This document shows, one piece after another, positions 24,845-62,188 of a stretch of DNA of 64,000 nucleotides (positions are counted from its first letter, which is position 1; each line of letters starts with the position of its first letter). The notes under the pieces were generated by a model that worked only from the letters and a program-made list of their open reading frames with translations, ran no database searches and had not been told where the DNA came from. The DNA lies in NCBI GenBank assembly GCA_963971405.1, contig OZ020491.1, positions 22,128,855-22,192,854 on the forward strand, in the 5' to 3' direction. The translations under genes were made by a program, and so were the position numbers. This DNA is from Psococerastis gibbosa (lineage: Eukaryota; Arthropoda; Insecta; Psocodea; Psocidae).

Positions 24845-25189
24845 AATAATAAATAATTAGATTACTCGTGACTTCGTGGTATTTCATTATAAAATAAACA
24901 AAAAATAACAAAAACTTAGAGTTTTAGAAAAACTTATTATAACAACCCGAATTAGTAAAACCCAAATAATCGTTAAGAAATTAACTTTGTCTAAGAAACC
25001 CACTTGTGTTAGTATAAAACCCTGAGCGCTTTCGGCAAGAACTGCCATCTACAGAGGGAAACCCACGAGCACAGTTACACCTTATCTGCGATTTGGGACT
25101 TGCTCAACTCGAGGAGAAGATGCAAATGTGACTAGGGAGAGGAAACCTTGGTTTATATAGGACTGGGAGGAGGGGGTGGGAGGGGGCGT
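24845..25189 (-). other. Probable terminal region of the Penelope-like element with hammerhead relic
   Basis: This non-coding stretch follows the GIY-YIG domain in element orientation. At 25024-25056 (minus) it reads CTGTAGATGGCAGTTCTTGC followed by CGAAAGC. GGCA/TGCC forms a short stem between a CUGNNGA-like box and GAAA, the layout of a hammerhead ribozyme core with one core base changed. Hammerheads are known in Penelope-like elements. Positions 24845-24910 resemble the reverse complement of 36340-36410. Confidence 0.4.
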
Positions 25190-27243
25190 GACTGGTTACC
25201 TATTCCTAACCTACTAGCTAGATCTATTAGAGGGGATGATTGTGTGAATGTTATGTCGTTTGTTAATTTTTCCTTATTGTGTAAAGCTCTTTTGATTTCA
25301 ACATTTTCAAAAAAATTTAAAGTGTAACTTTTCTTTATTTTGCGTAGGGCTGTCCAATTGTGAGGATTGAATGTGTGATTTTCCGCGAATGTGGTGTTGG
25401 TGTCTCCTATACCTGTTATATGTTTTTTGACCCTAGTTTTAAAGCTTCTGCCTGTTTGGCCTAAGTAAATTGCGTTACAATCGTTACAATTTAGACGATA
25501 AACTCCATTGCCTTTTTCCTTTTCTGCGGTTTGGTTTTGCAGTTCATGAGTTTATTGGCTAAATTGTTGCGGTTGTACGGGGCTGGTGTTTTGTCTGTTT
25601 TAGAAGAAATGAGGTTACTTATTTTTTCTGTGATTTTTTCTATATATTGTATCCTGAAGTATGATTTATTGGTTTTCGGGTTTAAGCCCTCTGGGGGGTA
25701 AATTAGTTTGAGATTGTGATGTCGTAGGATTCTGTCTATTAGATTGAGATTGAAATTGTTATTTTGGGCAATTTGTTTTATTGTATTTAATTCATTATTA
25801 TAGTTGGTTTCATTCATGGGGATGTTAAGGAGTCGAAAAATCATACTATGGAATGCTGCGTGTTTGTGCTGGAATGGGTGAGAAGAATCAACAGGGATTA
25901 TATTATCGCTATGGGTTTCTTTACAAAATATCTTGAAGTCTAGGGTACTATTATTTTTGGTGACGGTGAGGTCTAAGAAGTTCAGGGAGTTGTTTTCTTC
26001 TACTTCCATGGTAAATTGGATTTTTGGGGTGAATTGTGTTGGTAAAACTTAAGAAATTGTCTAGTTGTCTGTTACTTCCTGTCCAAATGCAGAAGATATC
26101 ATCCACATAGGCTACCTTGTCCAGAAAGATATACATTTAACTAGGGGATTTTTATTGCGCAGAAGTTTGTGTTCGAAGTTATCCATAAAAATTTCAGCAA
26201 GAAGGGGAGAAAGGGAAGAACCCATATAGGTAGGCCTATTTTTTGTTGGTAGTAGTCGGATTCGAATCGGAAATAGTTTTGATGAGTGCATGTGTCTAAC
26301 AGAAGGAGGGTCTCAGAAATAAGGCTGTTCGAGGTATTATAGTGATAGAGTGACTGGGCAACTAATTTACGTACTTCGGGTACGGGAATATTAGTAAACA
26401 GATTTTTGACATCGAAAGAGACGAGTTTGGCATTGTTGGATAAGGAAAGGTGCTTAAGGCGGGAAACCAACTCGAATGAGTTTTTGACGCTGTGGCGGGG
26501 TGTGAAGTTTGATAGCTCGCGAATGTGTTTGTTGAGAAAACTAGCTACTTTGCTGGCTGGGACACTGTTATACGAAACTACTGGGCGGATAGGTTGATTG
26601 GGTTTATGCAAGTTTAACCAGACCAAAAAATGAAGGAGCTACGGGGTTCATGTTGGTAAATTTATAGGCTATATCTTGAGGTATCGTATTAGAACTTTGT
26701 TTAATGGCTTTTTTGGTTGCTTTTTGGAATTTGTTTGTGGGGTCTACTTTAAGTTTTACGAACGTGGATTCATCAGAAATGAGGTCTAAGACTTTAGAAA
26801 CATAATCTTGGGTAGGTAAAATGACAATAGAATTTCCTTTATCCGCCTTGGTGAGTGTAAGGTTATCTTGGGCTAGTTTCTTTTTTTTTAAATTTAGTGT
26901 TATCGTTTTTGTGTGTAAGTTTGACGTTTTTCAGAATATCTGCTGCTATGTGTTTTTCATTATTGTGGTTTTTTAGGCTAAATTCAGTGTCTGACATTAA
27001 GTTGGTTAACGTGTTTTTGTTTAGACCTATATCGGGGCAATACTTGAGGCCCTTGTTGAGAAGTTCCATTTCTTTTGTGTTGAAAATCGTGTTAGATAAG
27101 TTGACGGTATGAGGATAGAATTTATGTGTTGTGATGGGTAGTGTAGTGAGTGTCTGCGCTGAAGGCGTGAGGCCTTGACCTACCCCAGTCTGCATCGATC
27201 GATGAAGGGGGTTAGACCGGGAACTGACGTTCGTCTCGCGCAT
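25190..27243 (-). mobile_element. Degenerate Penelope-like element (reverse transcriptase plus GIY-YIG)
   Basis: In minus orientation the parts are in Penelope order. The N-terminal segment has NLSNTIFNTKEMELLNKGLK (27243-26863). RT fragments follow with LVSFDVKNLFTNIPVPEVRK (26626-26141) and KVAYVDDIFCIWTGSN, the YVDD catalytic motif (near 26100). Then NFLDLTVTKNNSTLDFKI (26009-25491), and finally a GIY-YIG endonuclease in another frame: GVYRLNCNDCNAIYLGQTGR (about 25500-25200). Several frameshifts separate the parts, so the element is dead. A PLE scrap identical over about 75 bp recurs at 28860-28945. Confidence 0.88.
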
Positions 27244-27559
27244 CTATGATGTTTCGTGTCGCGATGTGATGTGTGATGTATTCCGTTGGATTTGTTATTT
27301 TGGTTTTGACTCAGTTCTTTTATTTTTTTATTTAGTGTTGTGCGTTTTTTGTAAGTGATGCCACTAATTTTAGTGTATATTTGGTCTTGGAAGGTGGTCC
27401 ATTCTAAAAAGTGAAGTTTGAAAGATAATTCTGAATGTAAAACTTTAAGGTAAAGTAAGCCTGCCAGATTTATTTTATACAGTATATTAGGCTATGTTGT
27501 TCTGTGGTATACACTATACCTATTTTTCTAATTTTTTTCGACATCTAGAGTGAAGTACA

Positions 27560-37243: not shown

Positions 37244-40200
37244 CTAAAATTCACAAACCGATACCATCATTCATACAAAATCGCCCAAGCCTGGCTAGAT
37301 AGTTTCATTAAATAACCGATCTTTCATGTGACGTGTCCACTGAAGTCTGCTTCTCTAGTACTCAGTTTCCTCAGTCGCCCTATGATAATTTTGTTTTATC
37401 CAACGCCGGCTCTTGGTATATCAGCCAGTCACTAGAGGGATCCCAGTGTTCTTTCAGGGTTGTTTTCCACTCTCTCAACGTCCGCTAGTGCCTAGCAGTA
37501 ATGGGGATGCTCTGCGTCCGTACGCCAGGGAGGTACAGAGCGGGCATTGGTCGGTTTCAGTTAGACTAATTCGGCTTAGGTAGACCTGGCGGTAGTCGTG
37601 CTTTATTCTGCATGTAACGTCGTTGCCGACGTACACTGCTCTGGCGATGTTGTTAATAATGCGAGACTTGGCTATCATACCAAACAGCTTTCTAGCAGAA
37701 GTTTAAACTGTGAAGCTGTGTTTTTAAGGGTCCAGAGGCAAATGCCAGTTTGGTCCAACCAGTTTCGAATGTTCTTCCTATCTGGAATAATAAGTCCTTT
37801 CTGCAGGAAAACCCTATCGTGATTTTAATATAATAACTTTACGATCACCGATACACAAAGAGGATCACTGAGAAATTTGTAATTGGAGCAAACGGGTTGA
37901 TGCAAAATTACAGAGTCTACTTCAGAAAATTTCTCTCGCTGATACACGATTTTCTGACAACCGTGCACTGGCGTCAGAAATCTTCTGAAGTAGACTGTGG
38001 TTTTTCACCAACCCATGTGCTCCAATTCAGATTTCTCGGCGTTTGTCGCCAGTACTGAATCATTCTTGTGTACCGGGCCTATGTTAATAACCTTACCCGT
38101 CGGCGTTACAGAGAGACTGCAATTTGGTTAGGTAGTTGTCAAGGTTCTCGTGGGTCGGCTTGTCGCCCACCCCCGGCATCCGCACGTGTTCAAGCAGACT
38201 CATCACATTGTTTCGCAAACTTTCGTAGTATTCGTTCAAGTTATTATTCCTCTGAGACAACCCCTGAGTGTCCTGAAAAGGAAGCAATACAATAAATAAA
38301 TAAATAAATAAAGCCCTTTTGTTCCATTATTAAGCCAACCAAGCGGAGTTAGGACTAAACAGACTATACAGCCCTCCATCTTCATCTGCTCAAATCAAGA
38401 ACCTTATCGAGAAGATGCAAGGAAATAATACATCGAACTCGACCAGTCGTAACCCATGGGTGTGAGACATGGGTTATGACTCTGAGGAGCGAGGAGCTGC
38501 TTGAAAAGTGGGAGCGCAAGATACTCCGAAAGGTGTATGGACCAGTGCAAAATGAGGGACAGAGAGTAGAAATGACAAACTCTACGCGATATACCGAGAA
38601 CCTCCGATAGTAGCCGAAATCAAGAGAGACCGCATCAGGGCCCTCTCTTACATTCAATTAAGAAGGCGCCTGCCCTACGAAGCATGGTTAGAAAATGAAG
38701 CAAGTGTGGAACCTCTCGGGTCAGAGTCCGTATCACTTCTGAACATGACCTGACTGAAATGTTGGCCAGAAATCTAAAATGCATGTCCGCTGCCCTTTGC
38801 AACTGGACAAATTTGGTATTCTTTCATTTTCGAGAGCTTTCTCATTTTATTGAATGGTACAATTTAAAATATCGCAAGCTCTAACAGTATTTGTAAGTCA
38901 CAATCAGTTTTATTAGATTGCACCAACCATGGCGTCAGGTTGGCAGAAACTAGGAGTCTCTACCTCGGACACGAAAAACTAAACTTAACTGTAGGTATTT
39001 CTACTATTAAATTTACGTAATAAGGCTGGGATTCCACCGACGTCAATAGTGATAGTAATGATGCTATTGAAGTGGTAGCAGACATTTTTAGACTGTCTTT
39101 AATGTCTGCTACCACGTCAATACCATCAACATTACTATCACTATTGACGTCGGTGGAATCCCCCCCTAACCAATTATAAATATGGGTGCTTCTACTATCC
39201 AATTGGTTTTATTAATATCTTCCTCATGGGCTAGCTGTAGTAGGCCACCCTTACCCAATCCCTAAGCGCTCATGGCTTATGCACGGTTGCAAAAAAATAA
39301 GATACGGCTTTTTTGCAGTCCACTAGCGTAACTGTACAGCAGCGTCTAAAATTTACTTTTCATCAATGTCCTTACCTTATCGCCCTGCCTTAAGTGAGCT
39401 TCCATAGCACTAATGTCTGTGTGAAGGCGAAGCATCTGAGACTCAACACGGGCATTCTCTCTCTGAAGTTCGGATATTTCTGCCTCGAGTGTCATCAGAT
39501 CTTCACCACCGGGTCCCGTGCCACTGCCTGGGTGTCCGGATTCCAGCCCTGCAAAAACAAGGAAATTAGTTGGTAAGTTGAATTATTCCTATGCTTTTTC
39601 AGTAACATTTACAGCAACTTTCTTTTTTTATGTTAGAACCCTGCATCCAGGAATCGTTTCCTATAACATTTCCCCCACCGCTATTGGCCATGTTTAGCTT
39701 ATAGTTGCGGCAAACTTGGTAGTGTGCACAGCGTTGGGAGGGGAACACGGTGGACATGATAACGTGCTGAGATTATACTAGCTAGTCTGAGTGCATGTCA
39801 AGTCCTGGTCACCTCCGAATTAATCGTGCGACTTTACTATGTTCTCGAAATGGTTCGGAATCCACTATAATCAGGAAGTCCACCCTGTCAGTCAACTCCC
39901 CTTCTTTCCGAGATGAAGGAGTCTGCCCTTAGGGTGCCTCAAGTTCATAAACAGACTCACTCCCCCCGCCAGGCTGACAGGGTTGCTTAAAGCAGAAATG
40001 CTGAAAGCAGGCGTTAGAAAACAAACAAAAGCTTTTAGTTAAGCTTCATCTGTTCTATTTTATTATATCGCTGACAATTGCTTACCACATTGCTTGCCGT
40101 ATATATCATCGGGGCGGAATTTGGTCTTGGTAGACTGTCCCGCGATGGGACACCCAGACAGAGAGCGGTGCGTTAAAAAAGTGCCATTGATGTGTCCCGT

Positions 40201-43200
40201 CCCGTCACAGCCCGGCGTGGGACAGTTTGTTCCCTCAAACTTGATGACCGGTTGCGCGAGACTCGATTTGTGCGGTTCAGAGCTCCCATTTTCGAGGACA
40301 CGCAGTTTATTGCGGTTTGCAATAGGGCAGCCAGATGCGCTGAAAATTAACAAAAAAATGTTTTTCAAGTGTACCAATAAAAGGCCATTGAGTAGTGTAT
40401 TCTATTTAATTTAATTTAATTTATTTAATACCTTCTTCTCATCACCTTGGTGAGAATACTATATTATTTGGGGTTACAGAACAGTGTAATCAATTTTCGC
40501 AACCGAACCAGTTCCAAGCCAAAGCATCTGAGTAGCTTGGGTAAACATTATACACATTGTAACCTAGTGCAACTAAAGCAATCTGTATACAGTAGTTCCT
40601 ACAGAGCCCTTTAATATTTTTTCACTCACAATAAAGAGTGTGTTAACTAACTGATAAAGAATAGTTTGAAGCATTTTTTTGTGTAACTTAACCAGCAGAT
40701 ATTGCAGTTAAAGAAAAATTTTCAAGTGTGTTAACTAACTGATAAAGAATAGTTTGAAGAATTTTTTGTGTAACTTAACCAGCAGATATTGCAGTTAAAG
40801 AAATTTTTTCAAAATAATGGTTTTGTGAAGTCCGATAGCCTAGGAGGCTGCCACGAATATTAAACATCCTAATTAACCCTATATAAGTAGGGATTTTCTT
40901 GTTGATATGCTAGATGAAAGAACGAGATTTTTATTGGTAGTAACCATTTATGAAAAGGCGCAGTTTTAAACTTAAGTGGCATCACATAAAAGAACGACAC
41001 TGGCAAGTAATAGCTCTATGGACAGATTACTCATTTTAAGTATATGGGAGCTTAATAGCAATAGAACCCAGCTCATAAAAACCCTTCACCGTTCATTCAG
41101 CTAACATAATAAGCCTAAAAAATTAAACCAAAAAATAAAATAAAATAAAAATACCTTCGATGAGTGAAAAATTTGCCAGACGAATGACCTGTGCCGTCGC
41201 ACCCAGGTACGGGACACCTATTACAATTAATTTAGAATTAGAACAATCATTATGTTTACCTTCTGTGTGAGAGAAATTTGCCAGTGGCGTGTCCAGACCC
41301 ATCACACCCGGGGATGGGACATCTGCACCGCACAACAGAAATAAACCAAAACATAAGAACGTTTGCAAGGTGGGCATCTTGTATGGCAACGGGCCACATT
41401 ATACAATAAAGCAATCCAAAAATTAGTTCCTTATAGCCTTATAGGACCAAATGGTAGGGAAATTCTATCGGAGTTAAGTAATGATGGATTGTTTGACAGT
41501 GTGATAAGCCCAATTTTTTTCGTTTTAATAATAAAAGGAGAAAGACTTAAAAATCTGAAGAGGATATGCTGTGTAGAAATTTGGCACCCCAACATTAAAT
41601 AGTTTTCATTTTTTATTTCATTAACTCAGAAAGTTATATTAAAAATTTGGCTCATTTAAGTTGTAGAAGACTACTTCGTGCATCATGTAATCGGGTATTT
41701 TTACTTTTCGGTTTGTAGTCTTCAAAAATTCTAGTTTACGAGAAATTTTAGTCCCCACTGGATTTTATGAAAGAATTACCAAAAATTTAATTTTTTTTTC
41801 CTATTATATGATGCATGAAGAAGTCTTCTACAACTTACATCAGCCAAATCTTTGATAACTTGCTTTGTTAAGTAAATAAAAAATTAAAAATCAATAAAAA
41901 CAACAAATATTGGGGTGCTAATTTTCAACGTAAAACCGCAGCGATTAGTCGTATGAAATCGACATAGTGCATAGGCATACAGTATATGAGTACATCTTTA
42001 ACTTGAGTCTCTTAGAGTGACTAGACTAAGACAAACTACTGGACAGTTAAATCCGACGAGTGCATTTTATTACATATTTATTATTTTATCAATTATTAAA
42101 ATTATTGTTACATTATATTCTTTACCATACAAAACACATCTAAATTGACGAAACTGTTATACGCATATGGCACCTGACTGATTTAATTTAGTTTAAGGCC
42201 TGGTTCATAAGAGGCCACAAATCATGAAAGCTCGCGATCTTGAGAAATTTTCATTAACAGTAGAAATACACTTAAAAGAACCTAGGACACTTCTCACGTG
42301 ATAAAAGCATACTTGAGCGGCACTGCTGCTATTTTTGAACCCATTATGTGAACATGAGTACAAAATCTTAAAATGGGTACTTGCCTTAAAGGTTCAGAAT
42401 CTTGGCCATCGCGAGGCTTGCTCTTGGGCTTATTTGCTCGGGGGCACCCTGACAGGCTGCGGTGAGACGAATAATTTCCAGTGACGTGCCCTGAGCCGTC
42501 ACACCCCGGGGTCGGACATTTGAGCTCCTGCGAATGGGCCTGGATTTGAGTGCGATCCGCGCGGGGGCACCCGGACAGGCTGAAAACAAAATGAAATTAA
42601 ATTATAAGAAGCCGACAATGTAAAATAGCCACAAAGCTACAATAAACCATTGCTAGTACTTACACCAATCTATGGGCCCCTGCACGAGAACGTAGAGCGG
42701 CATATCAGAAACAAAACATCAATAGAGAATACATTGTCCGTTTTATAAAAGAGCAGCGTCTGAGATGGCTGGGACACGTTGTAAGAATGTCAGAAGACTG
42801 TATGCCAATCAAAATGTGCAAAGCAAGCATGACGGGAAGACGACTGGCTGGACGTCCATGAAACCGCTAGAAGACTGAATTAGAAACTGACCTTCGCAAT
42901 TTAGGAGCTCGTAAATGGTGTCGTGCAAACCGAGATGACTAATAGAGGGATGAAGTACAAGTACGATGAACTTCGCGTAAGTACGTACTTAATACTCAGT
43001 ACTGGGGTTTAAAAAAAATTCAGCCAGTGGAGCCCTTGCACACAGAATACTAGCGGCAATAAGATGAGAAGTCATCTTGCATAGTACCTAGTCTAGGGGG
43101 AACAGTTAGCACAAAGATTAATAGAAGAAGCGTCCTGAAATTGAACATTTAAAATTTAAACTAAGCTTCTATAGGTAGACAAAGTATACACCAAGGAGAA

Positions 43201-46200
43201 CAACATCCAAGCTGAACAAGCTAAAGTTTATAGAACAAAAACATTGAGGGTACGGCAACCACGCTACACCGAAGGCAGACTAAAATGCGCAGTATGAGGG
43301 ACATTCAACATTTAAAAACCAATTCGGGCAAAAAGTATAAAAATTGGAAGAAGGCAGTGGGAAGATAGACCGATCAACACAATGATATTTTAATACTACG
43401 TGCATAATTCGTAATGAAGTGGCTTCATCGGTTTTTCATGGCCTGTTTGAATATTAAAGTTAAAGTTAAGTGGGCGCTTTGGTCGGGAGAGAGAAGTATA
43501 TTTGTAATAGAGCAAAGCTAGTGATAGCAAATGGCCCATACGACTTCTTATATGGTCAATTAGGCCCGGTACACACAGAAGATTTTCACAGTCACGATTT
43601 TCTGACGCCTTTTCCATTGTAGGGATAGGGCTTGGTGAATGATCGGTGCAAGCCCAGAGTCTACTGCAGAAGATTTCTATGAACTGGCGTGTCTAGGGGA
43701 AAACCGTGCCCTTTCGTGCGGTTGGCTTCACACCAGCTTCCGAAATCGTCAAGAAATCTTCTGCTAGCCCTATGGCTACAATGGAAAAAACGTCGGCAAA
43801 TCACGACTGGGAGAATCGTTCGTGTGTAGCTTCCTCCCTTTCTTAATAACTTTCTTTACGTTCTCCCCATAGTAATCAGGTGAGTCTTGGTTTCAAAAGT
43901 TTAAAGTACTTAAATTCCCCCCCAAAAAATTCCGTAATGAAAAATTGCAAATTTCCATTTTTAAAAGAAATTATTAAATATAAGACTTCATAGTCTTATT
44001 GTTCGCCAATTGTGTTGTTGCAATAAAGTCGTTATTCATTAATTCATAAATGTTTCGTAAGTAAATTGGTCAATTGAATGGCCAATGCAAACACAAGTTA
44101 GGCAAATCTCGGGTACATTTTAATATAAAACTGCATCATCCTCTGTTTTTTTTTCAGCCAATTCAATGCGAATACACAAATATCACAAATCGAGAGAACA
44201 TGCTTCAGTTAGAAGCTACAGTGAAACGGGTAAGGGGGCTCCTGTGCATAAAGACAGAAATACAGGCGGATCAGTAGAGCTACCCACGAAATTGAAATAA
44301 AATAAATAAATAAATTTAGTTTTTATCAGTGAATTCTTTCAGGGATAAGTAAATATACAATCTAGTCCCTATGTATAATCGTTAGATAAATATCACACTG
44401 GACTTTCCATCGGCTTCTAGCGCAAGTCACCGCATGTTTATTTTTTATATTGTTAATTGAATACAGTTGTGCACGAAGTTTTGGTCGAGGAATGTTAAGG
44501 TTATAGCGTGTAATTGGGATATAGTGTTTAATCTTTCTCGACCAAAAATGCGTTCACAACTGGTTTCAATTAACAATATGAAAAAGAAACATGCGGTGAC
44601 TTCCGGTAGAAGCCGATGCAAATTCCAGCGTGATATTTATCTAACGGTTAAATCAACCCTAATTACTCTACTGTCCATTTTATATTTTACTGGCTCTCTG
44701 TACAGGTGGCTTTAAAGTGAAGAGAAATAAAAAATATAACATCAACACGGCAATATTGGTAAGGGCACTTTATGTATGAGGACAGGCTTGCCTTCTATGG
44801 GTAGCGTAGTTGCCGGACATGTGTCCCATCCCGTCGCACCCTTCTGTAGGACATTGTATTAGCTCCTTGCCGTCCCGACCCCGAACTGGCGTTTTTCGCA
44901 ATAATTCACTATAAAATACACCATACGTTGTTCTTCCTATGTACCATTTTTATCATATTCCATCATCCCTTGTTCGTCTGGCCATTGTTGCAAGACTTAC
45001 CTTGTTTCCAATAAATTTAGGATAACCGTAACGCTGCAAATAGAGAAGAGCCTACTTGGTAAATAAAAAGGGAAGAGTTTATACTCTTAGTAGCATGAAA
45101 TTTTTTTCCAAAAGACCACATATTAACATTAAAATAAGTCAATAAAATATGACCTATGATTTTTTATTACTCTTAGGTCCATTTTATGTATACTATTGCG
45201 TGAGTGTGACTTTTGGGTGTCACACCTCGCATTTTGACAGTTATAATTTGGTTTATTGGTGAGGGCCTTCGGCCTTAGGGATTAATATAAGAATAAGGCT
45301 ATGATTCAAATAGTGAAGTCAGGTTGCAGCATCAATATGAACATTTTCGAAAAAAAAAAACAGGGAGAAGCTGAGAACAAGATTTAAATGCTATCATATA
45401 CTATACGTAGATTCTAAAATCGAAATTAGAGGAAGTGGATCGGGAGAAGTTAAAAGTTCAAAACTTTGTTACTGCTAAATACCGCCATTTTCTAATCATT
45501 TTTTAAACCAAATTTGGTTATGTTTTAGTAAACAAAAACTTTTAACTGATTTAAAACTAGTTTAACTACTATATTATTCCTTTAAATAGTCAAATGACCT
45601 TTTTTACTTTAAATAATTAGTTAAGTCACTGCACACATCTCCGTAAATGCAGTGCAAAATTACCGTTTAAAATTATAAACATGTGATTGAAGACAATATT
45701 AATAAAACACATGAATTAGATCAAAATTTGACAAGGACTGAGAAACTGTGTAAAATTGACTTATTAGAGCCTAATATGGGCCAGAAAATTATTATTTATT
45801 ATTATTTTCTATTACAAGGTAAAAATGATGTTATTAAAAAGTTGTAAAATTTTGCTGAAACTTACAGAATGTTTGGTTTTTTTAAAATTCTGGGGATCAT
45901 TAAAATAGGAGGCTCTTCCAAGTACTCTTCATCGGCAGATTCGTCTTCGAGGTGTTCTTCTTTGCCAGGTTCCAATGAATTTACAGAGAAGTTTTTGAGC
46001 AATTCTTGTAAACTATTGAGATCGACCAACTTTCCGTCAATGAAGACACTTGTTTCTTTCAGGAGATCCATTATAAATCACTTTTAAGAACTTTCTTTAT
46101 ATGAAAAATGCGCAAAAAAATGTAAGGATTCGAAAAATAAAAGAATTGAAAACTTTTAGATTCTTATAAATGAACAGTAATAGAAAATAAATAGGGGAAA

Positions 46201-49200: not shown

Positions 49201-52200
49201 AAGGTGGCCATAGGCCACACCAGTCTTACTGATTATTTTTTTCCATTTGCATTTCTATCGGCCCTTGTCTCAGCCCTTCATAGGTACGATCGTTCCAGAC
49301 TCTATCCCACATTTCCCACCTCGTTTTTTCAGGTATGCACAGAAGGGATTTAATTTGGACGGCGTGCTGAGCTTGTTTATTTTAGTTGCTGTCCAGTTCT
49401 TGCATCTGTACTACCTACTTGAGTCAATTAATGTAAATAATTATCACCCACCATTCTCATGTCGCAGTAGATTATAAAAATCATAATTAAAATTTCGACT
49501 TACAACCATTATTATAGAAATAAACTCTCTGTCCCTGTCATGAATTTATTAATATGGTCTTCTTCTGAGGTCACAATCTCAACGATTGGTTGGCAATAAC
49601 TCCCTCCCCCAGCTCTTTCGGTCCTACGCCTTCCTCTTTAGCTCTTGGTACGTTCGAGCTCCTGCGTCCACCTTCAGTTGATCCATGAATTCTCTCTTCT
49701 ATAAGGGTTCCTTCCACTGTGTCCTCAATGACGTCGTGCCTTAATAAATGCCCTACCCATTTCGCTGTTCTATTTTTTATATGAGGTAGCAGCTGTCTCT
49801 GTTCTTCAATAGCCTCTAGCACTCTTTCATTCGTCACGTGGTGCCTCGGTATATGGTGCATATACAATATTCTAGCAGACAATGTATAGCTTAATAAGAG
49901 TGGCACAAAAAATTGGGAATACGGAAACCAATCCACAGAAAAGTAATTTAACATTTTAACACTTTTGCTGACGAACAAGGGATGATAATGTAAGCCAAAC
50001 GACATACCAATGATATATCATGTTAAGTTATGTCTACCTAGGCAGTAGTCTACTAAAGAACTAAAGTTCTAAACCCTAATGAGAAATGTAATTTTTTATA
50101 ATAGTTACGAAATTGCATAATTTGATAAATGTAGGTGTAGGCAATCTTTCGGCGTTTCAATAGGATAGCTTGGGCTAAGATTAATTGATTATTCGCCTAA
50201 CAACACAGTAGAGTAGCATACAGGTAGCATTGCGAATATGGAACAAAGTAGTAATTGCCATTAAATTATTTAGGGTTTATAAAAAAATCTACCTTCAAGA
50301 ATTGAGGCTGAGTTTCTCTTGTTTGCGAGTTGAGAGTCAAAAGCAATAATTTCTCGAATGGCTTCTAGGCCCTTCTTATACGAGTCCCCATTTTAGATAG
50401 GTAGGTTATCCAAAAATTACCCTATAAACAGTTGTCAACCTGTCTATACTATAAACTATACTATAAACAGTCTGTCATCGGATCCTTTGTATTTACAGCC
50501 CAGATATGGGTTAATTGTAAGGGTGGGTGGAAAGGCCCAAATTCGCCCATTGTGAAAATAAAGACAATTTTCTTTCTTTTTTCTTCTTTCGTACAGTTGG
50601 CTACAACCACAACACAACTCACCCATCATCCTTGTGTGACTTGTCCGAGTGGGGTGGGGGGTGCTGGGGCGGTGCCATCGTGTAGCAGGGGCTGTGCGCA
50701 TAGCCGCCGTGAGCCGAATAGGTCGCAGGCCCGGAGCCCGGGTACCCGTTGCAGGGGTACGACCCCGGGTACGGTGTATAACTGTTTCCGGCGTATTCGG
50801 CCGGCATGCCGTATCCTGGGTGAGGACTCATCGGTGTGTACCCTGTGAAGAAAACAGAAATATTAAGAGGAGGAGGAGGGGGGGGGGGGCGAAGTTAGTA
50901 CAACTAATAAATTAATAAATGATGACTTTTTTGTTCTATTACTAAGCCTACCTAGCGGAGTTAGGGCTGTAAAGCCCTCTCTTACACTCAACTAGGAAGG
51001 CCCGGGACCGCCTGCTTTACGTGCCCTCCGAAGCACAGCCAGAAAATGTAGCAAGTGTAGGACTCGAACCAACAACTTTTCGGGTGAAAGTCCGTACCAC
51101 TACTTCACATGTCTACATCCCTGACCCGTTAATAATCTTAGTGTTCACTGAGCCTGCCCATGTTCAAATCAGCCGTTGTAGACACCGTAAACAAAACGGA
51201 ACTGCTAGAGGTTTTTTTATTTTTTTTAAGGCGCTTATTCCACCTACGTCAATAGTCAATAGTAAATGTGGTTTTGACGTTGTAGCAGACATTAAAGGCA
51301 TACTAAAAATGTCTGCTTCCACGTCAAAACCACATTTACTATTGACTACTGCCGTAGGTGGAATATGCGCCTAAGGACTTTTTATCGATCCAAATCAAAT
51401 CAAAAAGCTGTATATTTTTACAAGTTTTTTTTTTTACAATTATAGAGGTGACTTACCGCAGGACTAGTCCGTGTGCGGTTTAGGCTTTTATACAAATAAC
51501 TCAATAACTACAAATAACTGTATGGAAACCAAAGTAGAATTATGCTTGTTTTGTTGTGTTGTTGTGTTAGTGTATTAGTATAATCACGTATAGGCTTCCA
51601 TGATCGGAGTCTGGTGAGGAGACAAAGGGATGCGAGCTAATAGGCCGTGGTCGATCCGCTCGTACTCCTCCGTCTCCTCATGTTAGTGTATTAGTAATTA
51701 GTAAATATGTTAGTATTGTGTGCGTAAAAGGTTGGAGATATTCTGTGTGTTATTCATTTTTTTGTCTATCTTATGCATCTATTTCTTGTTTTACCCATAT
51801 TTTTAATTGTTTTTTGAATACTGTCATGTTTTCGATTGCTTTTAAATTTATGTTTAATCTGTTGTAGTGTTTTATTCCTACGTATAGCGTTTGGTGTTGT
51901 ATTAGTGTGGTTCTTGCACGTTGCTGCTGCAGTGGGCGTGTGTGCTGCCTTCTTGTATCATAGGGGTATTCATATAGGGGTATTATATGTCTATTTTTTG
52001 TATTTCAATTATTGATTCTTTTATAAATAACTGTCTGATCGAAAGTATTTCAGCTGTTTGGAACAGTTCTTTTGTTGGGTGTCTGTTGTCTACTCTGTAG
52101 ATAATTTTTAGGATTTTTCTTTGTACTACATTCAGCTTCTCTATCACATTTTGATATGCTCCTCCCCATGCAGTTATTGCATAGCTCAAGTGCGATTGCA

Positions 52201-58200: not shown

Positions 58201-61200
58201 ACCCCAAGTTCAGATATGAGGCCTGGGTACCTTACCGTCACCAGGAGAGGGAAAATGAGGCTACCGGACATGTTCCTGACCATCATCCCAAATAATGGGC
58301 AGGCCCCTTCTATACCATCTCTCCGGACCGCGACTTTTCTTCAAAATTCTTGCAACTATTGATAATAATCAACTCGGGTTTTTGCCTATATGGCTACGCT
58401 TTAGCCCCGTAGTAGATCAAGACCCCACCCGTACGATATTGCTTCAAGCTGAGATACCTTCATTCAGGTAACAAAAATCACTAACTTTTATGCAGGATTA
58501 AAGCAAAATTTCCGCAGATATCGTATGTTATTAAGTTACCCTAAAAAAATGTCTTTTCAAATGACTTGGTTAATTTTTTATGTAATTAAATTCCAAATTT
58601 TCGGAAACGTGCCTGGCCCGTAGGCCCGTATATGTACAGTATGTTGCTCTATTCTAATGGAAGGTGCACATTTTATGTCTACAAAGAGCCCAAGGGGAAA
58701 GCTCATTAAAAATGTGCGGGCCGGGGAAGCGGGGATGTATTAGTTCGCCTTGAGTGCACAGAGCCCAGCGAGGATTCCGCTTTTGTCAGCTATATGGGAT
58801 TAAATCCGCTAATCACGTTACTCTTATCCATACAAGATAATGGCGTCTCATTCCCGCCATTTTATATTTTAATCTAATTTTCTTGCCCCTCAGAATTCCT
58901 TTCACAGTAAAATATCCCAAAATTCTACTTCCCTATATTGGTAAGCTATATTTTGTCAGTTATACTGAAGAAATCTTATCTGTTGGGGCCCTTTTGGAGC
59001 GGGCGGTTGCGGGAGTGGGTCTGGCATAAAACCGTGCATTGAAAGGTCACGAATATTGGCTCTTGTTGAATAATATAGTGTGACATTTGAGTAAAATGGA
59101 ACTAATTAAGTTCTTTGCCTACCTGAGGACTAGATGAGGTAACATTTGAGGTGGATAAATCCATAACGCTCCCACCAGGAGATGTCGGAGCACCATTCTT
59201 AATCTGAGCCTGAGCTGCAGCGTGCGCCGCTTTTACGGACAGGTTTATCGCTGCTGGAGAAAACCCTGGAGGTATCGTGCCTGACGAAGGATCGTATTGA
59301 TACATAGGTCGAGGATACACTGGTGCAGAAGGCTCGTTCTCCGTCTGCAATGAACGTCGATCCATCATAGAAGTGTTGTCAGTAGAAAGATGTAGTCTAT
59401 TTGGATTTGTCAGAGGCGTTCGACTATGTAGGATACATTATGATGTCTTCTTGGTATTTATTATGTAAGAAATAGAATAATGTTTTGTTTGCCTTCTAAA
59501 TAAGAGGCAGAAGACAAAAGTGGATGTAACTCCCTAAAGAGAAGTCAAGTATTTGAAAATGTGAATTAAGTTACCGTAAGGTGCTAACACGGTTCAATCC
59601 AGGAAGGTCGGATATATATCGTACCTTCATGATTCCCATTCCTGGCATTTGATGTTGCTCTTGGTAACCGGTTCGTCCATCTTCACAGTCATATCCAGCA
59701 TAGAGCCTCTGATTTTGGACATTGCACGCTCCATTCTCATACCGATCATAGGCAGTACCCGGATCGTACGGACGGTTTGTTTCATAACTTCCCGGGTAAG
59801 TGACCATGGGACGGGTGATGGGCGCGGAATGGTAGCTTGCGTCCGTCGTGGAGACCATGTCGTTTGACTCATAGGGAGATCGGTGTTGTTGGTGTGGAGG
59901 CTCCACCAGTGCCACCGTTGAGAATGGAGGAGGTGCGTGGTGAGGTACTGGATGATGAGGTGGAGGGTGAGCCAAGTGGTGACCTAGAAGTGTAAAAGAG
60001 ATAATTTATTGCATTTGAGATCGTGAAAGTCATTGTCATCAATATCTTAAATTCAATTAATGAGAGGATCTATAATACTGTGCCTATTTATGGTTTCATT
60101 GAGTAAAAGTGTTAGGTACCTCGCATTGTGTCCATGCTAGAAACTGAGGAAGAGTTCGAATCCTGATTGAGATAAGAATCATAAGTTCTATGAGGTGGTG
60201 GAGAAATATTTCCCGATTCAGTTTTAGGTATGCGACTAGGCGAAGACTTGATGACATCTTCTGCTTTGATAACTGACTTGTTGTGGTTGTAGAAAGGGCT
60301 GGCGACAAATGGGGAGCTTCCAGGGGAACGACGTCCTTCCGCTGTTGAGCCGACATTTTCAGATTTTGGCTGATGAGTTGAGTACGACATTGTTGTTGTT
60401 GGAGACATCATTGAAGTCTTTTGGCCGAAGAATTCAGATTGACATGCTGGCACTAAAATCAAAGCAGATCCTGACGAGCTGCCTATTGTTTATTATTGCT
60501 ATGCTTTCTAGCTAGTAATTTCCACTGATTCAAGGCGTCAGCGTCCGACAGGGTCGGGTACAGCAGCGCACACGGCACTAAGAGGGAGGAAGAAGGAGAA
60601 GAAGACTTCCACTGAATGTGTTATTTGTTGTACTGTTGTATGGATAATACCTAGGATGCAGAGATATTTGATGATAATGATGATGTCGTTTTTGATAGCT
60701 CTTGTGTTTGGCATAGTTTAAAAAGTAATGATTAAAGTACTCTTGGATTTTGTTTTAGTGATTAGTATGGCTGGATGGTTTGCTCGAATATGAACACAAT
60801 TTGAACAATTGAACAGTGTCGGATACAGCAATTATAGCAATTGCAAAGACTATACTGACTGTGCTGGCATTAACATTAAATACGGCATGATTTGAAAGAT
60901 GTGTTTATTGACGACTTATTGGAAACAGTTATGATGTACATAGTGTATAGTGTATATGATTCATGGGACAAATTATCAATTCGGTTTCATATCAATGATA
61001 ACATACATATTTATATCCAATGCCATTAGTAATAATGTGATTTGCGTGTTTGTGCGTATACATTACCTGGTATGATGGACGAATGTGCCAATTTGTGCCG
61101 TTGTTCTCTAGCAGCTTGTTTATTAGCAGCAGCGATCGGACAGCCTGACAAGCTTCGATGAGTACTTCGGTTCGTGCTCACATGGCCCCTGCCGTTGCAT

Positions 61201-62188
61201 CCGGGGGTTGGACATTTCAAAATCGTCTCATGTAGCGCCAAAACTGTCCATCATCAAAAACATCAAGCATTAGCAAACGGACAACCAAACCATTACCATG
61301 GCCGGTTAAAAGTCAGTACACCTTTGGCAACAAGACAAAACCAAAAATCACACGTACACGACTTCGCGGGTAGAGAGTTTAGATAGTTCAATTATGGATA
61401 TAAGAAGCAAAAACACACACAACTAAATTTTCGGAAAGTTTACCCCAATTTTTTTAAAGTTCTGGGCAAAGGTGTGACCGACTTCCGTTGCATGCTGGAC
61501 GTTTTTGACTTCTACTAAGTGCCATTAAAGAATGAAAAATGAAAAAAATTAAATAAATGGGGGAGCAACTAAAATATAAATAAAATTTGCTCTCTACCCC
61601 GCTTTTACTATCGTTACTAGGCTACATTCTAACTAACAAATAAGCAAAAATAGCAAGGCAATAAATGAGAAACATAGCTGGATGGAGTGTCTGAATAAAA
61701 GTGATACTAAACGCTCTTATAAATAGCGTATTGGCTACTCGTACATGTGAAATAGGATCGAATCAGTAAGATACAAAATTACCGTTTACCAGAGTAACAT
61801 GAATAAGTTACTGTATGTATTTCACACATACAGTACTGTAACTAAAATCATGAAAGCGGCATGCCCGTGTTTTGCGATTTGCTTTTTTTTTTTAAGTAAA
61901 AGAATTGATTCTGTCAAAATAACTAGAGATCACCAATATATCAGACAGTTGGCATGTGGAAATAAAAATACAAAAATAAATTTTGACTGAAAATATTTTA
62001 ATAAATAGGCAAGTATGTAAAATTATAAAAAAAACATTTAGGAGCGTCATTCCAATAACCTTGAGACTACTTACTCTCCGGAGAAACTTTATCTTTTTTT
62101 GGACACCCAGACAAGCTCCGGTGGTGGGTGTAGAGCCCGGTCACGTGACCAAGTCCACTACAGCCAGGAGTTGGACATTTGTTACCAT
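37156..62188 (-). CDS. MYT1: MYT1/MYT1L/ST18-type C2HC zinc-finger transcription factor (gene span, 5' end outside window)
   Basis: Fifteen exons on the minus strand join without a single phase conflict and give 913 residues plus a stop. In order they encode two central C2HC fingers ([15 protein letters not shown] and [14 protein letters not shown]), a Pro/Ser/His-rich linker with LSVK, LDLSVTR and MDLS motifs, four more fingers, a coiled coil and a conserved C-terminal tail. The same order is found in vertebrate MYT1L, where the factor acts in the nucleus to promote neuronal fate and repress other programmes; a role here is inferred from family. N-terminal exons (first finger, acidic domain) lie beyond position 64000. 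Regulation by splicing is suggested by two alternative half-finger exons, two GC donors and an internal candidate first exon. Confidence 0.95.
37845..38079. mobile_element. Foldback, family III relative
   Basis: CACTGAGAAATTTGTAATTG and GGAGCAAACGGGTTGATG pair with CCAACCCATGTGCTCCAATT and CAGATTTCTCGGCG; right end TACCGGGCC. It lies 17 bp from the donor of MYT1 exon 38097-38272. Confidence 0.6.
38097..38272 (-). CDS. MYT1: MYT1 exon: coiled coil, second part
   Basis: 176 bp, acceptor CTTCCTTTTCAG, donor GG|GTAAGG, phase 0 in and 2 out. It reads [20 protein letters not shown] then [18 protein letters not shown] and [16 protein letters not shown]. Reading through would stop at TAA just after Asp-Gly, but the donor is good and a matching last exon exists at 37156-37243. 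Confidence 0.92.
38289..38745 (-). mobile_element. SINE (family 1) split by a LINE tail fragment
   Basis: The family-1 3' end with its ATTTA tail is at 38289-38377 and the 5' part (GACTCTGACCCGAGAGG head) at 38638-38745, both in minus orientation. Between them (about 38378-38637, plus) is a LINE tail: [20 protein letters not shown] then [15 protein letters not shown]. The order implies that the LINE fragment entered an existing SINE. It lies in the intron between the two coiled-coil exons of MYT1. Confidence 0.65.
39024..39166. mobile_element. Foldback MITE, family I
   Basis: Ends GGCTGGGATTCCACCGACG and CGTCGGTGGAATCCCCCCC, flanked by TAA on both sides. Confidence 0.85.
39376..39548 (-). 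CDS. MYT1: MYT1 exon: coiled coil, first part
   Basis: 173 bp, acceptor TTGTTTTTGCAG, donor AAG|GTAAGG, phase 1 in and 0 out. A Gly-rich hinge ([12 protein letters not shown]) is followed by [20 protein letters not shown] and [20 protein letters not shown], a heptad pattern. It corresponds to the EIKELNESNSQMEADMIKL coiled coil after the last finger in vertebrate MYT1L, used in protein-protein contact. Confidence 0.93.
39785..39985 (+). mobile_element. SINE family 3 copy
   Basis: Contains GTCCTGGTCACCTCCGAATT and ATGGTTCGGAATCCACTATA, shared with 4264-4410 (reversed) and with the head of 24035-24245. It lies in the MYT1 intron between 40086 and 39548. Confidence 0.5.
40086..40339 (-). CDS. 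MYT1: MYT1 exon: end of finger 3 and complete finger 4
   Basis: 254 bp, acceptor TTAATTTTCAG, donor G|GTAAGC, phase 2 in and 1 out. It starts [12 protein letters not shown] (vertebrates: SASGCPLAAKRQ), then a linker, then [20 protein letters not shown] and [14 protein letters not shown]. All ligands are present. It ends before the coiled-coil exons. Confidence 0.96.
40636..40811 (+). repeat. Two-copy tandem duplication of about 90 bp
   Basis: GTGTGTTAACTAACTGATAA to TTGCAGTTAAAGAAA occurs twice in direct orientation with a few differences. In the MYT1 intron upstream of exon 40086-40339. Confidence 0.75.
41155..41217 (-). CDS. MYT1: MYT1 mutually exclusive exon, finger 3 core version B
   Basis: 63 bp, acceptor TAATTGTAATAG, donor AAG|GTATTT, phase 2 in and 2 out. 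It encodes [20 protein letters not shown]. Versions A and B differ at six of twenty residues (I/V, S/T, A/S, T/S, L/F, S/T), while all ligands and the PGCDG core are kept. Inclusion of both would make a finger lacking its last Cys followed by a complete one. The 42-nt interval, shorter than normal animal introns, should prevent that. Confidence 0.93.
41260..41322 (-). CDS. MYT1: MYT1 mutually exclusive exon, finger 3 core version A
   Basis: 63 bp, acceptor GTGCGGTGCAG, donor AAG|GTAAAC, phase 2 in and 2 out. It encodes [20 protein letters not shown], carrying the two Cys and two His of a C2HC finger. The final Cys comes from the shared exon at 40339. A second exon of the same length and phase lies 42 nt downstream in gene direction. 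Confidence 0.93.
41575..41935. mobile_element. Foldback element, family II, diverged copy
   Basis: TTTGGCTCATTTAAGTTGTA and TCTTCTACAACTTACATCAG pair, with ends TTGGCACCCC and TTGGGGTGCTAATTT. It lies between the alternative finger exons and exon 42385, close to the exon pair. Confidence 0.6.
42383..42384 (-). other. Second GC splice donor (GC-AG intron)
   Basis: The exon ends TTTAAG and the intron begins GCAAGTACC. Using it completes AG+A or AG+G as Arg before CP(I/V)PGCDG, which matches vertebrate [14 protein letters not shown] lies five bases on (GTACCC), but it breaks the frame and has poor consensus. This donor precedes the pair of mutually exclusive exons, where weaker donors are often found. 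Confidence 0.85.
42385..42579 (-). CDS. MYT1: MYT1 exon: end of C-terminal finger 1 and all of finger 2
   Basis: 195 bp, acceptor TTGTTTTCAG, phase 2 in and 2 out, second GC donor AAG|GCAAGT. It reads [20 protein letters not shown], then [20 protein letters not shown] and [14 protein letters not shown]. Finger 2 aligns with [20 protein letters not shown] of vertebrate MYT1L with all ligands conserved. The longer open frame on the same strand is out of phase. Confidence 0.95.
42690..42960 (+). mobile_element. Decayed LINE tail
   Basis: The plus strand reads [20 protein letters not shown], a stop-interrupted GRRLAGRP motif, then [20 protein letters not shown]. This is the conserved LINE C-terminus. 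It lies in the MYT1 intron upstream of the exon 42385-42579, with plus orientation. Confidence 0.75.
43563..43830. mobile_element. Foldback MITE, family III, left flank TTA
   Basis: Begins GGCCCGGTACACACAGAAG. Inner arms CAGAAGATTTCTATGAACTG / GTCAAGAAATCTTCTGC; right end diverged (GTTCGTGTGTAGC). Confidence 0.55.
44380..44650. mobile_element. Foldback element, separate family
   Basis: The arms TCGTTAGATAAATATCACAC ... TTGTTAATTGAATACAGTTG are mirrored by CAACTGGTTTCAATTAACAA ... TGATATTTATCTAACGG. Loop centre has paired TTTTGGTCGA. Confidence 0.7.
44790..44791 (-). other. GC splice donor (GC-AG intron)
   Basis: The exon ends in CATAGAAG and the intron begins GCAAGC. No GT donor in the vicinity restores the frame. 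With the GC donor the junction codon is AG+C (Ser) and the finger reads HRSLSGCP as in every family member. GC donors with otherwise perfect consensus are a known minor class. Confidence 0.85.
44792..44908 (-). CDS. MYT1: MYT1 exon: 5' part of C-terminal finger 1
   Basis: 117 bp, acceptor TATTTTATAG, phase 2 in and 2 out, non-canonical donor AG|GCAAGC. It reads [18 protein letters not shown] then [20 protein letters not shown]. The last Cys of this finger comes from the next exon (SLSGCP). In vertebrate MYT1L only a remnant of this finger survives (DLITLSGCPLADKS), so the animal here keeps the complete version. Confidence 0.93.
45866..46071 (-). CDS. Candidate internal first exon of a short MYT1 isoform
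   Basis: An ATG-initiated frame of 68 codons starts [20 protein letters not shown]. It becomes acidic ([16 protein letters not shown]) and then basic and hydrophobic ([12 protein letters not shown]). It ends at a consensus donor CT|GTAAGT at 45865. Phase 2 is exactly what the next MYT1 exon (44908) needs: CT plus T gives Leu and the reading frame continues into the C-terminal finger cluster. A protein starting here would carry four fingers, the coiled coil and the tail but not the central pair. TATAAAG occurs at 46095-46101, too close to the ATG to be a convincing TATA box. It could instead be an unrelated open frame in an intron. Confidence 0.5.
46588..46720. mobile_element. Half of a family-I foldback
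   Basis: Only the left arm remains, starting GGCGGCTATTACACTTGTCG after TTA and ending at GGCAGAGACTTAT. The right arm is replaced by short repeats of GTTAGATGTTA. Confidence 0.65.
46730..48560. other. MYT1 intron stretch, low-complexity
   Basis: Contains several G or C homopolymer runs (near 46970, 47205, 47365) with decayed CCCCCCTGGATCCACCCC-type repeats. No supported exon. Confidence 0.45.
48565..48783 (+). mobile_element. SINE family 1 copy
   Basis: Full head-to-tail copy with a short internal duplication in the head (GGACTACGGACTATG) and a TTTA tail. In a MYT1 intron, antisense to the gene. Confidence 0.75.
49590..49810 (-). mobile_element. Decayed LINE tail
   Basis: The minus strand encodes [20 protein letters not shown] then [20 protein letters not shown], the usual RxxxWVGHLLR and G-R-R features of LINE C-termini. 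It is too short to classify and lies in a MYT1 intron. Confidence 0.7.
50623..50842 (-). CDS. MYT1: MYT1 exon: Tyr/Gly/Pro-rich linker 6
   Basis: 220 bp, acceptor TTTCTTCACAG, donor GG|GTGAGT, phase 1 in and 2 out. It reads [20 protein letters not shown], further [16 protein letters not shown] repeats and a His/Pro run ([16 protein letters not shown]). Disordered. The following coding exon is almost 6 kb away; the large intron holds SINEs, MITEs and a candidate internal first exon. Confidence 0.9.
50905..51115 (-). mobile_element. SINE family 1 copy, minus strand
   Basis: Reverse complement of the consensus: TTTAT tail at the left, body, then GGACTCGAACCAACAAC and the head at the right. It is followed within about 110 bp by a foldback element. 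Confidence 0.75.
51230..51371. mobile_element. Foldback MITE, family I
   Basis: Ends GGCGCTTATTCCACCTACG and CGTAGGTGGAATATGCGCC, TAA on both flanks. Confidence 0.85.
51700..52870 (-). mobile_element. 5'-truncated non-LTR retrotransposon (LINE), RT domain
   Basis: The frame 52870-51983 encodes [20 protein letters not shown], the palm motif [29 protein letters not shown] (catalytic FADD box), [11 protein letters not shown] and [16 protein letters not shown]. This is a continuous non-LTR reverse transcriptase from motif 3 to the thumb. After a frameshift near 51985 the conserved end continues in another frame ([11 protein letters not shown] ... VKQEID) to about 51770. Endonuclease and 5' part are absent. 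It resembles the CR1/jockey side of LINEs; I cannot place it further. Confidence 0.88.
52893..53240 (+). repeat. Interspersed repeat B interrupted by about 120 bp
   Basis: B blocks run from GGTCTACATATGGCACATAG to GGTATAGGCC, then unrelated sequence (about 52998-53122), then B resumes at TCGATGTCAACCTATACCGG. The interruption is an insertion into the repeat. It lies next to the MYT1 exon 53379-53494. Confidence 0.55.
53379..53494 (-). CDS. MYT1: MYT1 exon: linker 5 with [16 protein letters not shown]
   Basis: 116 bp, acceptor TTATTTTCAG, donor G|GTAAGT, phase 2 in and 1 out. It reads [20 protein letters not shown] then [18 protein letters not shown]. No domain. Its 5' border with the acceptor is duplicated about 220 bp upstream in gene direction (see 53466-53880). 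Confidence 0.9.
53466..53880 (+). repeat. Direct duplication of about 180 bp including a MYT1 splice acceptor
   Basis: 53466-53640 and 53689-53875 share ACGAATCCATGGGGTAGCGG through CAGGCGCGGGGCCTGTGGTA to a long G run. The left copy holds the true exon 53379-53494 acceptor and its first 29 bases. The right copy holds the same acceptor with one change and the exon start without its donor. Confidence 0.85.
53881..55600. other. MYT1 intron stretch
   Basis: It has a short direct duplication at 54205-54290 (TGTTACAAATATTTACAATA) and a G run near 54908. No exon in phase between 53494 and 57453. Confidence 0.45.
55608..55660 (-). mobile_element. SINE family 2 head fragment
   Basis: Reverse complement contains GATCGTGGGCTCGAGTCCCG after a degraded A-box region. 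Only the B-box side is convincing. Confidence 0.45.
56093..56335 (+). repeat. Interspersed repeat B copy
   Basis: From ACTTTTTATGGACCCAGGCC to AAAGCATGAGTACAGATTC; in a MYT1 intron. Confidence 0.65.
57453..57589 (-). CDS. MYT1: MYT1 exon: linker 4 with [12 protein letters not shown]
   Basis: 137 bp, acceptor TTTATTTACAG, donor AA|GTAAGT, phase 0 in and 2 out. The correct frame reads [20 protein letters not shown], a short Gly/Ser segment, then [16 protein letters not shown]. The two trailing bases combine with the first base of the next exon to give Asn. The LDLSV motif is a repeated signature of MYT1 linkers (LDLSMNK in vertebrates). A longer open frame overlaps it on the same strand but does not fit the phases. 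Confidence 0.92.
58005..58215 (+). repeat. Interspersed repeat B copy
   Basis: From AGTGGCCCTTTGGTCCCTTG to GGTGCAATGCGAAAGC; in a MYT1 intron. Confidence 0.65.
59123..59344 (-). CDS. MYT1: MYT1 exon: linker 3 with INLSVK and MDLS motifs
   Basis: 222 bp, acceptor TTCATTGCAG, donor CAG|GTAGGC, phase 0 in and 0 out. It contains [18 protein letters not shown] and [11 protein letters not shown]. Vertebrate MYT1L has a matching alanine-rich segment (AAHMAATAILNLS) and short xDLS motifs at the same place, so this exon can be aligned as well as counted. Confidence 0.92.
59625..59983 (-). CDS. MYT1: MYT1 exon: His/Pro/Tyr-rich linker 2
   Basis: 359 bp, acceptor CACTTCTAG, donor AAG|GTACGA, phase 1 in and 0 out. 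It starts [20 protein letters not shown] and continues with Tyr-rich segments ([20 protein letters not shown]). It is low in complexity but fully open over 119 codons and framed by consensus splice sites. It has no recognised domain. Confidence 0.88.
60120..60452 (-). CDS. MYT1: MYT1 exon: Ser/Pro-rich linker 1
   Basis: 333 bp, acceptor TGATTTTAG, donor GAG|GTACCT (weak), phase 1 in and 1 out. It encodes a disordered region with many SP and TP pairs ([30 protein letters not shown]) and the sequence VIKAEDVIK, which fits a sumoylation-type consensus (V/I-K-x-E). No folded domain. Length and phase are consistent with the linker between the central and C-terminal finger clusters. Confidence 0.88.
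61067..61243 (-). CDS. MYT1: MYT1 exon: second finger of the central pair
   Basis: 177 bp, acceptor GATGGACAG, donor CAG|GTAATG, phase 1 in and 1 out. The junction codon gives [10 protein letters not shown], the same inter-finger linker as vertebrate ILAMHESVLK. Then come [20 protein letters not shown] and [15 protein letters not shown]. All four ligands are intact. The exon ends in a basic helix-like stretch ([10 protein letters not shown]). Confidence 0.95.
62075..62188 (-). CDS. MYT1: MYT1 exon: first finger of the central pair
   Basis: 114 bp, acceptor TGGTTGCAG, donor A|GTAAGT, phase 1 in and 1 out. It reads [20 protein letters not shown] then [17 protein letters not shown]. The zinc ligands C, C, H (of HHR) and C are all present. 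It corresponds to the finger [20 protein letters not shown] of vertebrate MYT1L, including the following basic linker (KDRVPPE there, KDKVSPE here). Confidence 0.95.

Follow-up and report, generated by a model that had tools for sequence, protein, structure and literature searches.

The Myt1 gene of Psococerastis gibbosa

The window analysed here, a stretch of 64,000 nucleotides from contig OZ020491.1 of Psococerastis gibbosa, contains an insect-type Myt1/ST18 gene on its minus strand. Thirteen exons were placed from 62188 to 38097, which is the extent of the gene model; the 5' part of the gene and its last coding exon fall outside the placed set. It encodes a pair of CCHHC fingers at 62188-61067 and, at 44908-40086, a cluster of four more. 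The exon of the first N-proximal finger (62075-62188) is followed by the exon of the second (61067-61243) and by three middle exons, m1 (60120-60452), m2 (59625-59983) and m3 (59123-59344). Exon m4 (50623-50842) lies 5' of the C-terminal finger cluster. Since the phases of m3 and m4 do not match, at least one exon must have been missed between 59123 and 50842. By eye, a second possible exon start (TGCC...) was seen before exon m1, at about 60580-60486 of the minus strand; it has an equal phase, runs into a stop and is a possible alternative terminal exon. Elsewhere on the minus strand, open frames at 25153-27491 resemble, also by eye, a Penelope-type retroelement with a reverse transcriptase and a GIY-YIG-like end.

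When spliced, the C-terminal cluster gives four zf-C2HC (PF01530) stretches above the curated cut-off (209.8 bits). Genome-wide (409 Mb in 68 contigs) there are eight zf-C2HC places, seven of them in the Myt1 gene and one on another contig. The closest proteins among the matches listed are the Myt1/ST18 proteins of Tribolium, Diorhabda, Spodoptera and Zootermopsis, which have the same finger order, and the insect relatives among these matches carry PF01530 only, without the central MYT1 domain (PF08474). Beyond the last finger, a coiled-coil exon (39376-39548) resembles by eye the tails of the Zootermopsis and Tribolium proteins; its match to an approximate human MYT1L tail is weak (E 0.004). 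The next C-terminal exon (38097-38272) has the donor GG/GTAAGG, its end being set by eye. Judged by these comparisons, the gene is an insect-type rather than a vertebrate-type member of the family, whose fly gene we take to be CG43689.

Two exons of the C-terminal cluster end in GC donors. These are the F4 core exon (44792-44908, 117 nt; AG/GCAAGC at 44791) and the exon encoding the end of finger F4 and the whole of F5 (42385-42579; AG/GCAAGT at 42384). The intron upstream of the exon pair described below is thus a GC-AG intron. The F4 core exon is present in 5 of 22 insect proteins (cluster representatives) and absent from the other 17, which run into SLSGCP or a variant of it. Skipping this exon preserves the frame in the P. 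gibbosa gene too, and from the protein comparison it is apparently a cassette finger in insects. The termite (Zootermopsis) model reads ATHRRQA beyond the F4 finger, and the P. gibbosa gene would give the like on read-through of its GC donor, which suggests that the F4 GC donor may be shared.

Two exons for the core of one finger

Between the F5 exon and the exon of the last finger lie exon A (41260-41322) and exon B (41155-41217), separated by a spacer at 41218-41259 that contains the donor of A and the acceptor of B. On re-checking, the coordinates and lengths of the initial annotation (63, 63 and 42 nt for A, B and the spacer) proved correct, as did the equal phase and consensus borders that it gave for the two exons. 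AG precedes and GT follows both of them (tgcag/A ... AAG/gtaaac for A and aatag/G ... AAG/gtattt for B). Each exon encodes residues 1 to 20 of one CCHHC finger, and the two differ at six of these, in agreement with the earlier description. The alignment of the pair spans 68 nt at 72% identity, and 44 of the 63 exon bases are identical. The spacer resembles the DNA after B at 18 of 42 positions and the DNA before A at 12 of 42, with no clear remnant of the duplication, which thus looks old. Two other repeats lie in the neighbouring introns. The intron directly 5' of exon A holds a large imperfect inverted repeat (41573-41929; arms of 58, 35 and 24 nt) resembling a fold-back mobile element, and the intron 3' of exon B holds a tandem repeat (40637-40812) with two units of about 88 nt, which are 96-98% alike where matched.

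The zinc ligands need a small revision. They had been placed entirely within each exon; four of the five (C/C/H/H/C) are there, but the last Cys is encoded by the shared downstream exon (40086-40339), which opens at 40339 with SASGCP and also carries finger F7. Similarly, the label "finger 3" holds for the position within the C-terminal cluster, where this is the third of four, but not for the protein as a whole. The ASGCP ending and the position before the last finger identify it as the vertebrate F6. The solved finger pair of KIAA0535 (2cs8), a protein that is presumably ST18, has the same finger order. Completed in this way, both fingers exceed the Pfam zf-C2HC cut-off of 32.3, with 57.9 bits for A and 56.5 for B.

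The A-type finger was found in all 22 insect protein clusters fetched. In 21 it is identical to A, and the exception, from Phlebotomus, carries one change. On this comparison A is the canonical insect form. B motifs were present in none of 264 database proteins fetched, although the database clusters at 90% identity and may hide isoforms; these proteins come from lists of the best 120 of 2550, of 498 and of 1119 matches, and the count leaves out a 265th record, a 21-residue translation of the window. In the search aimed at the B finger, proteins are ranked by the summed score of all their fingers, and vertebrates crowd the list. Upon local rescoring, a B form would reach 246-251 bits in a six-finger insect protein, above the last listed match (227 bits), and 209-219 bits in a five-finger protein, below it. 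A search with model residues 607-739, beyond finger B, added the Myt1 proteins of Zootermopsis and Phymastichus, both A-type. Bacterial/archaeal and viral collections, which could contain stray animal DNA, gave no match to the finger pattern in either case.

These counts are what one would expect if only A were in use and B were a relic copy that is no longer spliced in. Two further features of B fit such a relic. Its Phe at position 17 occurs in none of 113 distinct Myt1 fingers, and could be a new property or a fault, and its acceptor is poor in pyrimidines (0.53, with 0.47-0.53 in three other acceptors of the gene). The coding differences speak against it. Among the 20 codons, 8 of the 14 that changed did so silently and 6 by replacement; dN (NG86) is 0.146, and dS could not be computed and is read as saturated. 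When B was left to decay freely from A with the same number of base differences, six or fewer amino-acid changes arose in 0.14% of 200,000 runs. Under a kinder two-lineage model, in which A accumulates silent changes while B evolves without constraint (3164 runs kept of 120,000), six or fewer replacements were seen in 1.6% of the runs kept, and 6 of the 3164 also held the four ligands without a stop. B has preserved its frame, its four ligands, both splice borders and its finger score, and five of the six residues that set it apart from A are also seen at the corresponding position somewhere among the 113 fingers. The argument for constraint on both copies, built from simulations and finger scores in one genome, makes a freely decaying B improbable and points to its maintenance by selection, and we regard the relic explanation as unlikely.

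Spacing as a probable basis for exclusion

Of the five arrangements tried, A, B, A plus B and neither all keep the reading frame, and a stop appears only when the spacer is retained. Exclusion of one exon by the other is thus not enforced by the reading frame. Apart from the AG of B's acceptor the spacer contains none, and further upstream the first AG met is the one that ends exon A; the branch point of B should therefore lie within the 42 nt. The proposal that the spacer has to accommodate both A's donor and B's branch point agrees with this prediction. The best branch-point match is CTAAT, with the A at spacer position 22, 20 nt before exon B. The distance from A's donor to this predicted branch point is ~21 nt (range about 20-27 nt). 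In published work (PMC7969005, PMC5740500), ~50 nt between donor and branch point is given as the limit for the use of both exons, and 57 human clusters are reported to lie below it (PMC5740500); with a predicted branch point, and with a whole spacer of only 42 nt, the P. gibbosa pair lies below it too. For OGDH exons 4a/4b, branch points at a distance of 25-41 nt from the donor are reported to impose the exclusion (PMC7969005).

Our preferred explanation, to which we assign a probability of about 0.72, is that A and B are mutually exclusive tandem exons for the F6 core, derived from an old duplication and spliced singly between the F5 and F7 exons, mainly by geometry. An ancestral exon for the first 20 residues of an F6-type CCHHC finger would have been duplicated in tandem, and A or B, one at a time, would be joined to the F5 exon on one side and the F7 exon on the other, both of them shared. 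Exclusion would be chiefly geometric. With B's branch point about 20-27 nt from A's donor, U1 and U2 presumably could not both engage. If B is used in RNA, the gene would make two proteins, distinguished by six residues within a single DNA-binding finger. Mutual exclusion through the short spacing is likely on these predictions.

The initial annotation described 42 nt as below usual animal intron size, which agrees with the introns sampled in this genome. Sixty introns estimated elsewhere in the genome, in two gene families, measure about 150 nt upward; these sizes were estimated from the coordinates of profile matches, and an intron short enough for a profile to run across it could escape. 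The smallest is estimated at about 200 nt in the chaperonin family (n=37) and about 150 nt in the myosin family (n=23). For the former, 46 of 49 rows were used, leaving out two from C12 and a single isolated one from C19, and at least one of the 37 gaps spans an unmatched stretch and may contain more than one intron. For the latter, 62 of 76 rows were used, leaving out the eight of the relay array described below, a further three from the same gene on C19, two from C20 and one from C3; the 23 introns are neighbouring pairs whose profile ends meet within 13 positions. In published work, however, Drosophila is described as splicing introns of 40-50 nt, at a slower pace (PMC5762160), and human cells as splicing one of 43 nt (PMC4463651).

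The claim that joining A to B would be sterically impossible is therefore too strong. Such joining is possible given these fly and human introns, and its product would be in frame and free of stops, so some transcripts might keep both exons and encode an extra half finger ahead of a full B finger. That half finger would lack its last Cys, and the spacer is under the quoted ~50-nt limit and far below the sampled introns of this genome, so that we consider transcripts with both exons quite improbable. A real exclusion that depends not on spacing but on competition between RNA pairings of the flanking introns is less probable still: the downstream intron contains, at 40618-40628, 11 nt exactly complementary to exon B and, at 40540-40551, an 11/12 complement to A's donor, but when that intron was shuffled 300 times an exact match of 11 was also reached in 10 cases, the upstream-intron match of 10 was reached in 77 of 300, and with many windows examined such complements are near chance. 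Of the earlier interpretation as a whole, a tandem exon pair that provides one MYT1 finger in two versions is well supported by the sequence, the selection signal and the gene context, and the steric impossibility is overstated.

Consequences and comparison with known systems

Myt1 proteins are described, in a report on the C. elegans member, as contributing to neuronal fate through the repression of alternative programmes (PMC6684318). Their fingers are very alike across the animals compared. If mutually exclusive use of A and B is true, a finger thought to be fixed would prove swappable through splicing, and a second version of it, maintained by selection, would offer a natural experiment on the sequences that F6 recognises. 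The six changes are mostly conservative, and the two forms would be putative DNA-binding versions of the finger, perhaps with a difference in binding or between cell types. On a broader and more tentative reading, which we consider possible but would not expect to hold in full, the C-terminal cluster could be a splice-set DNA reader. Inclusion or omission of F4 and the A/B swap in F6 would give as many as four combinations of fingers, differing in the targets chosen; the 42-nt spacer would fix the A/B switch, and weak GC donors would gate the exons of F4 and F5.

Within the Myt1/MYT1L/ST18 (NZF) family, insect and vertebrate members share the same set of CCHHC fingers, the finger order and the C-terminal coiled coil; the P. 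gibbosa gene differs from the members fetched in its second version of the F6 core, which none of the 264 (90% clusters) has. By title and abstract opening, no report of alternative finger exons in the Myt1 family was found among the open-licence papers listed. The main text of the C. elegans Myt1 paper has no occurrence of "isoform" and none of "mutually exclusive", or one of the latter by another count (PMC6684318), and a MYT1L review has none of "isoform", "splic" or "exon" (PMC9307810). Tandem exons with a short spacer are a known arrangement; the gene and the swapped domain appear to be new within the open-licence literature searched.

The insect Mhc relay exons are a textbook mutually exclusive array. 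In the P. gibbosa genome, a muscle-myosin-like gene (G000:C19:32574405-32578932) contains eight tandem matched stretches of the motor domain, spaced 183-520 nt apart; the last copy is longer and has four stops inside. We take this to be the insect Mhc relay-exon array, of which flies are not known to have as many copies. Its presence indicates that tandem exon arrays of this general kind occur in the genome. Like A and B, the relay array consists of tandem homologous stretches, but with gaps of 183-520 nt its spacing is probably not what excludes. Exons 18 and 18b of FOXP1 are a splice-switched DNA-binding domain. There, one gene gives two versions of a DNA-binding domain, as we propose for A and B, although FOXP1 has another fold and belongs to another lineage than the Myt1 finger, and the effect of A and B on binding is putative.

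Closer in mechanism are mutually exclusive exons kept apart by an intron that is too short, as in tropomyosin. Among published statements on this class, one names Dscam exon 17 as a further case. OGDH 4a/4b and the 57 human clusters (PMC7969005, PMC5740500) are reported as adjacent homologous exons with less than ~50 nt from donor to branch point, likewise the arrangement predicted for A and B. The P. gibbosa pair, known here from its sequence alone, differs from these clusters in a spacer that is just 42 nt in all and in the piece that would be swapped, a zinc finger.
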